64,000 nt of DNA from Datnioides undecimradiatus. Taxonomy: Eukaryota; Chordata; Actinopteri; Lobotiformes; Datnioididae. Positions 33,601 through 38,170 of this stretch are shown here, in pieces. The stretch spans positions 312,001 through 376,000 of the forward strand of contig WARS01000063.1 in the NCBI GenBank assembly GCA_008933995.1, written 5' to 3'. The translations under genes were made by a program, and so were the position numbers. The notes under the pieces are model-generated. The model was not told the origin of the DNA. It made no database searches and saw nothing but the letters and a program-made list of their open reading frames with translations. Position 1 is the stretch's first letter. The number at the start of each line of letters is the position of its first letter.

Positions 33601-36600
33601 CCGTCTGAACGGCTACCCCTTCCTAGACGCCAAGGAGGAGTTCACACACACCACGCTGGCCCGGGAGGTGATGAGGCCCCGACGCAGCGATCCGCCGTTA
33701 GCGGTGCTGACGCAGGACGACCTGACGGTGGAGGAGCTGCAGGCCACCATCAATGAGACCAGTTATAATGGTTTCCCTGTGATAGTGTCCAAGGAGAGTC
33801 AGAGGCTGGTGGGCTTCGCCCTGCGCAGGGACATCACCATCGCTATAGGTAACGGAGCAGGAAGTTGTTATGAGCGCGCGTGTTTCAGCATGTTTGGTCA
33901 CAGCGTGATGAACTCTCCGTCCTCTCCCAACAGAAAATGCTCGCCGCAAGCAGGAGGGCATCATGTTGAACTCCCGGGTGTACTTCACCCAGCATGCGCC
34001 CACGCTGCCGGCCGACAGCCCCCGGCCGCTCAAACTGCGCTCCATCCTGGATATGAGCCCCTTCACCGTCACCGACCACACCCCCATGGAGATCGTGGTG
34101 GACATCTTCAGGAAGCTGGGGCTGCGCCAGTGCCTGGTCACTCACAACGGGTAAGTACTGAACCGTCTCCGGACGAAGGAAGCGCCGAATCCTTCGCTCC
34201 GGCGCGTTGCTGTGGTCGACTAAGCCGTCCGAGGTCGACGAACTTTGCACGTGCACATGTACACGCCGCGTGGTGTTGCATGGACTCTGGGGGTCTGGGT
34301 TTACCCTGTGTAACTGCATGGCCTGGCCTAACCGCTGTGCTGCACCTCCTCCACCCCCCCCCTCCCCGCCTCCACCCTCCCCCTGCTGAACAGCAGCCGG
34401 TCTCCTCCGGAGGCGAGACCGAGCTGCTGACACTAACTGCGACTTCATAACAGGTATCGTGTTAAACCAGTTAAACCAGGTTTTATAGATCCTAGTGTTT
34501 AGGGCGCCACCTGCTGGTGTGATGTAGGAACCACGAGACAGGTTGAGCAGAGGAGCTCGCCCCCCCCCCCCCCCGCCGCAGAAAGGAGCCCTGTTTGTTT
34601 TTATTTACATCTTTATGTTACGTTTATGTTTTTATTCACATTTAAATCTTTAAGAACCAACCACAAACATACAGATTTATAGAGTTTTGGACCCAGCCGA
34701 GCATCATGGGAACTGTTTTCCCATGGATTAATGCACATTTGGTGCCTTTAAGAGTATTTACAGCAGACAGTGTGTTTGTAAGGAAACTGCTGCGTCCATG
34801 TTTATTATAACGATATTACGTCATTATTAGCAGCATTCTTTTTAATAATTTGCCACATTTTCGCCCAAATTTAGTGCACATTTTTTAACAAATTCATAGA
34901 AAATCTGCAAAATACAAATGCAAAGTAAGTGTTTTCATCCACAGCTGATGTGTGAGTGCTCACAGTTCGGTGCACTGGGCTTTAAAGCTCCTGTCGGGAG
35001 CCGATAAACTGCTGCAGAAGAAGACGCAGCAGCAGGATGAGGCCAAACAGCTCGTCAAAGTCGCGATTAAAGAGTTCAAGTGCATCACATGACATCATAT
35101 CACGACACTGAGTCATCACATCCCGTTTCTGTGTTGTGTAATTTTGAGTTGTATTTTCTGTTGAGTTTAATATTTAAGTTCTGTATGTTTGCTGCTGCTG
35201 TCTGTTCTCTCTCTCTCTCTCTCGTTTGTTTGTTTTTGTTTATTTGTCCTCGTGTGTTCCCGGGCAGTTGACTGAGTGTTGGGGGGGGGTGTGTGTTGCA
35301 GGATTGTGTTGGGCATCATCACAAAGAAGAATATATTAGAGCATCTGGAGGAGCTCAAGCAGCACGCGGAGCCCCTGGTGACTAGCCCCGCCCCTTTACA
35401 CACGTGACCTCCCCTTCTTCCCTCCCTCCACTGTCGCACCTGTCTCTTAGGCTCCGCCTCTTCGGAGGGCTGCATGAAAGTTGGTGTGAAGAGCTGTTGA
35501 CAGTTCCCAGCTGAGCGTTGAGTCCTCCTCTTCCTCTCTCTCTCCTCTGCTGTTCCTGGGTTGGTTTGGTGTCGATTCACCTCGTTTGACCGCGTCGTCC
35601 ATGTCAGACCCCCCCCCATCCTCATCGCTGGCAGCTGAACCTCGTCGTTTTGTGGGTCCTGTAACGTCGGACCCGTACGGGAGCTGTCACCCACATCAGG
35701 CTCAGAGCCGCTTTCAGACACGCGCCCGCCGATGACGCCGAACGCGAAGGTTACGGCGTCTGCAAACCTTCAGCTTTAACTCAGCTGCGTGGAACGAGTC
35801 GGACGCGTCATCGCCGCCCACGCCCAGGCTTTGATTTCCAAAATATTCAAATGGTGAATGAATCTGAACATTTCTGACCGCAGGATGTGTCGCGCTTCAC
35901 TGTGAAGTCGTCCTCTCTCACTCGTTCACGTTTGAAGCTCGGCCGCGATTGGCTGCAAACAAGTAGTGATGTCACAGATCCTGCTGGTATGTAGACGCAG
36001 ATTTAAGGTGAAAGATTCGTTTCCTAGTGTCAGACCGCACGCCGGCCGTCAACTTTAGTCAAGCTTAACTTTAAATCTCGGCTCAGACGTCCCCAAAAAC
36101 AGTTTTTATTCCAGTTCTGCACTTTTTTCTCTTCTCTGTCCACATTTTTCTGAAAATGTGAGATGAACAAGACGCAGACGTAAACTCAATTCGATGCCGT
36201 GCGTCACGTGGCGAAGCCGTTGCGTCGGTGATCCCACGTCTGAAACGCGCCTGAGGCGTCTGTAGCGCCGTGTTAGCACCTTTAATTAGCCCGTGTGTGT
36301 GAGTCACCCCGCAGCAGAGACGCGTGTTCATTTCTCGGCACGATGACGTCCTCACCGTCTGTAGTCGTCGTCTGTTTCCCATCATCCCCCTCTGCCATCA
36401 GCAATCCTTCATTTCACCTCTGAGTGCTCCCCCGCCCTCGTGTTCCTGCCGCCATTAACGAATCCTTTCTCCTCTGTTTTGTTTTTGTTCTCTCGGTCCC
36501 AACGTTTCGCCCTGGGACCCTCCGCAGGTCGACAACATCTGACCCGTCGCCTTAACAACCACTTGGCGAGTAGCCAGCCGTTGTTTGACCCTTTGTCTTG

Positions 36601-38084: not shown

Positions 38085-38170
38085 TCCGCTCCTTCCAGGA
38101 CGGCCGGGGGGGAGGGGCAGACGGCAGCGAGGAGGAGGAGGTGTGCCTCCTGGACGGCTCCAATCTCTGA
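35302..38170 (+). CDS. clcn3: CLCN3 alternative C-terminus (ClC-3B type): 76-nt exon plus frame-shifted last exon
   Basis: The exon 35302-35377 joins exon 12 in phase and encodes [19 protein letters not shown] and then QHAEPL. Its length of 76 nt shifts the frame, so the last exon (37994-38170) is then read from its first base as [14 protein letters not shown]… through [12 protein letters not shown] to …[13 protein letters not shown] and TGA at 38168-38170. That gives 874 residues in the long form (human ClC-3B 866). The shifted tail aligns with the human tail (WHYNKKRYP, GKPRPRFNNVQL, EEEVYLLNSTTL). Its last residues GSNL fit a class I PDZ ligand (S at -2, L at 0). The acceptor lacks a good pyrimidine tract (a run of nine G precedes GTGTGTGTTGCAG), which suits a regulated exon. 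Confidence 0.9.
37280..37302. repeat. (CA)n microsatellite
   Basis: About 11 CA units in the last CLCN3 intron. Confidence 0.9.

Follow-up and report, generated by a model that had tools for sequence, protein, structure and literature searches.

How does the last exon of a gene come to be read in two frames, and does selection act on the protein in both of them? The clcn3 gene carried on the plus strand of a 64-kb stretch of fish DNA (hereafter the window, i.e. the whole stretch that was analysed) raises this question, as inclusion of a 76-nt exon would decide which frame is used. We consider it very probable, from the comparisons reported below, that the locus is the fish version of the ClC-3A/ClC-3B splice switch, built by an old exon duplication that supplied a cassette, with CBS2 kept and the former last exon reused as a tail.

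The clcn3 gene and its surroundings

A 195-aa piece of the predicted protein, joined over a small intron, matched human ClC-3 structures with an E-value of 5.7e-122, the next-best structure being a ClC-5 fragment (2.1e-27) and the ClC-6 and ClC-7 chains also being far weaker. As ClC-3 is the nearest of the solved CLC exchangers covered by this comparison (ClC-3, -5, -6 and -7; a ClC-4 chain was absent among the nine matches), we regard the gene as a CLCN3 orthologue. The protein encoded by its last exon is present at three places in the 581-Mb genome, namely in the window and at two further loci, C483 and C67, which on sequence features we take to be clcn4-like and clcn5-like, respectively. 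The exon-by-exon identity of these paralogues to the clcn3 of the window is 64-87%. Within clcn3, a putative short intron at about 33359-33451 is suggested because the protein match breaks off after ACLG and resumes at GVTRM, leaving a gap of 31 residues; it would keep the reading frame open if retained.

Elsewhere in the window, the minus strand downstream of clcn3 (41984-42976) encodes an immunoglobulin-domain protein (Pfam I-set) that we take to resemble MFAP3L, and beyond it, at about 51-54 kb, there is presumably an AADAT-like gene, one piece of which was searched against Pfam and gave no match. Further Pfam domains were found at 4101-5300 on the minus strand (Glyco_transf_49, the dystroglycan glycosyltransferase type), at 10160-10471 on the plus strand (CN_hydrolase, the nitrilase type) and at 57415-57879 on the plus strand (PAPA-1 with zf-HIT, which we assume to be of the INO80B type).

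Two readings of the last exon

The features on which the argument turns are these:

34000..34150, plus strand: 3' part of the exon preceding the switch, encoding most of CBS2; phase 2; 34000 is not the true exon start
35302..35377, plus strand: 76-nt cassette exon; 25 residues after a split Gly; when included, puts the last exon into another frame
37994..38084, plus strand: last exon in frame A; codons from 37995; 29 codons and a stop; standard ClC-3 end
37994..38170, plus strand: last exon in frame B; codons from 37994; 58 codons and a stop; ClC-3B-type end
37994..38083, plus strand: segment open in both frames; frame B has thirty codons here, overlying those of frame A, and is basic (+6)
38132..38152, plus strand: EEEVCLL in frame B, a candidate acidic dileucine form [DE]xxxL[LI]; from alignment to the human tail
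38156..38167, plus strand: GSNL at the frame-B C-terminus, by its form a putative class I PDZ ligand (X-[S/T]-X-hydrophobic)

The earlier note had proposed that the exon at 35302-35377 selects how the last exon is read; the coordinates and frames given there hold in translations across the predicted splice junctions. When the 76-nt exon is skipped and 34150 is joined to 37994, the split G is followed by 29 codons and the stop at 38082-38084, the protein ending in ..SIMFN. Since 76 is not a multiple of 3, inclusion changes the reading frame, and the same last exon is then open for 58 codons up to the stop at 38168-38170. The product ends in GSNL, in sequence form a class I PDZ ligand, as had likewise been suggested; the human end, taken to be STTL, differs from it and has the same form. 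Searched against the PDB, the 84-residue B end gave no match at E<=0.1, and a genome-wide search for a second source of the B tail returned only the same exon and the two paralogues (E 0.018 and 1.9).

The splice sites are as follows (slashes mark exon borders). The exon preceding the switch runs to 34150, with ..CACAACGG/GTAAGT at its border and CGG/GTAAGT as the donor; the 76-nt exon is bordered by TTGCAG/GATTG on the acceptor side and CCCCTG/GTGACT on the donor side, and the last exon begins at 37994 after the acceptor CTGCAG/GCGG. Scored with consensus matrices over the region 28700-38199 (636 GT and 571 AG), the donor of the 76-nt exon reached 6.4 bits (rank 27 of 636; neighbouring donor 10.3 bits) and its acceptor 5.7 bits (rank 51 of 571; neighbouring acceptor 10.0 bits), while the donor at 34150 ranked fourth among the GT sites. 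Such mediocre sites would be expected of an alternative exon, without proving its use, and they also count among the points against the switch. The acceptor region of the 76-nt exon (35285-35301, GGTGTGTGTTGCAG) is rich in G/T with few pyrimidine runs and might, speculatively, be a candidate site for a GU-binding splicing regulator.

Comparison with human ClC-3A and ClC-3B

The human ClC-3A end was taken from the PDB; for the human ClC-3B tail we used an assumed reference sequence ending in STTL. A single DNA can encode both the PDB A end and this assumed B tail, in six solutions that differ in the last two codons only; with the overlap part of the human tail shuffled, this was feasible in 0 of 100,000 cases. 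Against these references the fish protein is identical at 27 of 29 residues in frame A, at 24 of 26 (counted by eye) in the 76-nt exon with its Gly, and at 16 of 30 in frame B over the overlap. The fish tail continues past the A stop for 28 residues and the human one for 22, a difference of six. The C-terminal 14 residues of the two align without gaps and with seven identities, giving an anchored score that none of 20,000 residue shuffles reached; for the tail beyond the A stop, the local score was reached by 18 and the global score by seven of 20,000 shuffles. The best conserved block of this independent part is EEEVxLL, in which fish and human differ only at x. In form this would be an acidic dileucine sorting signal, and the fish EEEVCLL is better conserved with respect to the assumed human tail than are the PDZ residues: the last residues of the two proteins differ, with S/T at -2 and the terminal Leu common to both.

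The earlier alignment of the shifted product with the human ClC-3B tail is thus borne out, and with its frame-shifting cassette exon and a tail homologous to the assumed human one the predicted longer form would qualify as a ClC-3B isoform. ClC-3B was reportedly described in human in 2002-2003, by Ogura in 2002 and Gentzsch in 2003. The longer fish end matches this known human variant, and the switch looks old and real and not like a new system.

Two other readings of the longer end can be weighed here. Frame B and its tail might be open by chance, as frame B is likewise open over the 29 shared codons in both the clcn4- and the clcn5-like exons and in 52% of synonymous recodings drawn with the codon usage of the family (20% with flat usage). 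For the same reason we reject the openness of frame B over these 87 nt as evidence of selection. The tail past the A stop, however, beats the shuffles against the human tail, and the 76-nt exon is nearly unchanged from the assumed human one; these two matches together already disfavour chance, provided that the assumed human sequence is correct, and we find it hardly credible. Alternatively, the 76-nt exon might be an alternative terminal exon formed by read-through of its donor and never spliced to 37994. An in-frame stop does lie nine codons beyond its end, but the conserved frame-B tail would then be left unexplained, and the first AATAAA-like sites (37004 and 37175) lie more than 1.5 kb further on; this second argument is weak, as the same scan (to about 38900) gave none after the last exon either. 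We regard read-through as very unlikely and continue with the reading that the cassette is joined to the last exon.

Origin of the 76-nt exon and completion of CBS2

The 76-nt exon begins in the same phase as the last exon, and LGIITKK.IL.H is common to it and the start of the latter. In a fixed-register alignment 27 of the first 52 bases are identical, a value reached by 1 of 100,000 shuffles for a stretch chosen by eye, and 32 of 76 overall. These are adjacent homologous exons with the same 5' phase, i.e. the arrangement of a tandem exon duplication, in agreement with the earlier proposal that the 76-nt exon is a duplicate of the last-exon start. A general DNA repeat search, which reported six families, gave no pair linking the two exons, and the duplication is therefore old.

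Which copy came first is indicated by the paralogues. The last exon occurs in the same phase in clcn3, the clcn4-like gene and the clcn5-like gene. A tblastn search that did recover the last exons gave no match to the 76-nt exon at E<=10 in the equivalent introns of the clcn4-like (96 nt) and clcn5-like (4,468 nt) genes. Across the 581-Mb genome, the peptide of the 76-nt exon matched only its own place at E<=10; this search was too coarse even for the related last exon and excludes close copies only. Because the last exon is common to the three genes and the 76-nt exon was found in clcn3 alone, the last exon is the older copy. The cassette may have arisen in the clcn3 line or may have been lost from the clcn4-like and clcn5-like genes, the last exon being ancestral. 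As a side observation, the acceptor of the clcn5-like last exon is a TAGGAG tandem (C67, L007 9141-9146), through which one codon could be gained or lost.

With regard to the CBS2 domain the two copies appear interchangeable. The Pfam CBS profile (cut-off 24 bits) gave 40.4 bits for the protein with the A end and 30.4 bits for that with the B end, and only 13.2 bits when both ends were left off, so that the predicted proteins of both isoforms contain a complete CBS domain above the cut-off. As either exon copy completes CBS2, no domain is lost when the old exon is put to its second use, and this would explain at the level of the domain why such use was tolerated.

Is the overlap under two protein constraints?

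The earlier note had claimed that about 87 nt are under two protein constraints. It is quite possible, if not what we expect, that the isoform is real and the overlap singly constrained, frame A being selected and frame B serving as filler, with selection on B acting through the 76-nt exon and the codons after 38084. The identity of frame B to the human tail is in line with this: the 16 of 30 identities compare with a mean of 13.2 expected from frame A alone (open recodings, family usage; P 0.11), and P is 0.15-0.21 under the other nulls (0.21 with flat usage). Of the 17 differences between the fish and the inferred human DNA, moreover, 14 fall at position 3 of frame A, which is position 1 of frame B, and most of them change the B residue; of the three others, one lies in the stop codon, at a base that is ambiguous in the inferred human DNA.

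Other measures of the same overlap point the other way, although charge, BLOSUM62 score and codon bias were all picked post hoc, with the data already seen, and five nulls were tried. The net charge of frame B is +6 in this fish and +5 in human, against -3 in both the clcn4-like and the clcn5-like exons. With family codon usage the mean charge of open recodings is -1.8 and none of 104,285 reaches +6; P is 0.014 with flat usage and 0.001, 0.006 and 0.016 with usage tilted to bracket the low GC3 of the exon. The charge of the human exon in frame B has a P of 0.038 under flat usage. The BLOSUM62 score against human is 96, with 72 expected (P 0.041; 0.029-0.042 over the nulls), so that charge and score are high under all five. 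The paralogue exons, as controls, behave otherwise: the clcn4-like exon fits its null in both charge (P 0.65) and identity (P 0.71); the clcn5-like exon does not exceed its own in charge (P 0.89) and has eight identities to the human tail where 13.0 are expected.

Codon choice in the exon is also unusual. Only 16 of its 29 codons end in G or C, compared with 88% of 233 other clcn3 codons (binomial P 1e-5) and 84% of 652 pooled codons of the family (P 2e-4); the corresponding counts are 24 in the clcn4-like and 25 in the clcn5-like last exon. Seven of the 12 AT-ending codons of the inferred human DNA are kept in the fish, with 1.4 expected (P 5.5e-5), a further post hoc result that speaks against a single constraint, whereas over all 25 comparable codons synonymous matches to that DNA number 12 with 9.1 expected (P 0.09). 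These AT-ending codons might serve splicing and not protein B, as enhancer or silencer elements governing whether the 76-nt exon is included. We think this improbable, though the codon shift and the alternative exon are both seen in clcn3 alone of the three paralogues, just as such a role would have it. Against it, the shift yields the conserved basic motifs KKR and GKPR, which occur together with the Trp in none of 104,251 open synonymous draws.

The claim of a double constraint is thus to be put less strongly than in the earlier note: charge (P 0-0.016) and the AT-ending codons favour it, and frame-B identity (P 0.11-0.21) does not. Taken together, there is moderate support for a second constraint that would keep frame B basic through KKR and GKPR; this is not proof, a constraint on splicing being the alternative. 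On the present comparisons, the clcn3 last exon is probably an ancient dual-coded exon in a known isoform.

Age of the second frame

In the clcn4-like last exon (C483; L006 9314-9448, L002 from 1501), frame B runs for 14 codons beyond the region of the A stop and ends in EEREELLSSDGVNM. Among 3,570 stop-ended 14-mers drawn from the window and the two paralogue loci, this end is the best match to the B end of clcn3, the clcn3 tail itself aside, with a score of 29 (next 21) that 18 of 50,000 shuffles reached when anchored and 365 of 50,000 locally. Its match to the human tail is weak: its anchored score is 13, a value that 925 of 50,000 shuffles and 10 of the 3,570 ends attain, and its local score is equalled by 2,254 of 50,000 shuffles. 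GT pairs in the phase of frame B occur near the clcn4 donor at offsets -56, -53, -14, +7 and +70, and by eye none is near consensus.

If the match between the clcn4-like and clcn3 tails is not due to chance, frame B is older than the clcn3/clcn4 split. The fullest history would be that duplication freed the ancestral terminal exon for overprinting and that the second frame has been selected since before the fish/tetrapod split, maybe since before that of clcn3 and clcn4. We hold this to be rather unlikely as a whole. As to an origin before the paralogue split in particular, the overlap of clcn4 resembles its null, and an unselected relic of such age should probably have faded.

How the switch may work

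Our reading of the switch starts from what was computed, namely gene anatomy, paralogue comparison, CBS completion by profile and the tail match to the assumed human sequence, and extends to splicing, sorting and immunity to nonsense-mediated decay, which we infer. The start of the last exon would have been duplicated upstream within clcn3 long ago, and the duplicate would have become a 76-nt cassette with a donor of its own. Skipping of the cassette, most likely a regulated choice, would give the compact ClC-3A end (..SIMFN). Its inclusion would bring the ribosome to the old last exon in the other frame, turning that exon into a tail with a basic stretch over the A codons, an acidic dileucine block and a PDZ ligand. 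CBS2 should be complete in both products, either copy supplying the missing end of the domain. As each of the two stops falls in the last exon, both mRNAs would be expected to escape nonsense-mediated decay.

The B tail most likely redirects the exchanger to Golgi or plasma-membrane routes through PDZ proteins, and perhaps through clathrin adaptors. The review PMC7940362 describes ClC-3A, B and C as similar in transport properties and different in location, with ClC-3B possibly in the Golgi, and PMC6584808 lists ClC-3B among Golgi channels. GOPC, EBP50 and PDZK1 are stated to associate with ClC-3 and CFTR in the research paper PMC13406507, where zebrafish clcn3 transcripts X1-X5 are also mentioned. 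According to PMC7940362, however, co-expression of either ClC-3A or ClC-3B routed ClC-4 to late endosomes/lysosomes; a distinct destination of ClC-3B is thus disputed and its routing unsettled. Nor is equal transport by the variants agreed by all, since PMC13406507 finds unequal fluoride conductance among the RefSeq isoforms b, c and X1.

The lettering of isoforms calls for care in this respect. NM_001829.4 presumably ends like ClC-3A. It is this sequence that PMC13406507 calls 'ClC-3b', following RefSeq, and for that reason its isoform-b results are not applied here to ClC-3B.

Significance and comparison with known systems

Few conserved dual-coding exons are known in animals, and for most of these it is unclear how they arose. 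The isoform discussed here is known in mammals; what is new is the order given by the paralogues, the completion of CBS2, the tests of the overlap and the EEEVxLL block. In the literature searched, the original ClC-3B papers lying outside its scope, we found no statement of dual coding in ClC-3B or of its origin from an overprinted exon; among the best 15 of 107 papers on related subjects none mentioned CLCN3, and the searches returned neither the 13-residue ClC-3B piece nor CLCN3 together with ESRP1 and three further terms. The paralogues give an order in which the old exon came first, the copy later and the use of the second frame last, and the clcn4- and clcn5-like exons provide built-in controls that encode nearly the same protein without a second frame. 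The B tail offers an acidic dileucine block besides its PDZ end. Changes that are silent in ClC-3A can alter ClC-3B, which bears on how human CLCN3 variants in the last exon are read.

The closest known system is the mammalian ClC-3A/ClC-3B pair, which has the same gene, a frame-shifted C-terminus, the class I PDZ form and a cassette matching in protein (on the assumed human sequence); the fish tail differs in its greater length past the A stop and in ending in GSNL where the human one is taken to have STTL. Tandem duplications with mutually exclusive exons likewise place homologous exons next to each other so that either completes one domain. Gene geometry and the frame-B match indicate, by contrast, that the clcn3 exons are not mutually exclusive: the old copy appears to end both forms, and with the other copy included it would be read again in a different frame. 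Finally, dual-coding exons of the INK4a/ARF type, like the predicted clcn3 switch, have one DNA stretch read in two frames from different mRNAs of one locus, but in clcn3 the two frames would provide alternative ends of one membrane protein, and a duplicate of the exon itself would determine which frame is used.
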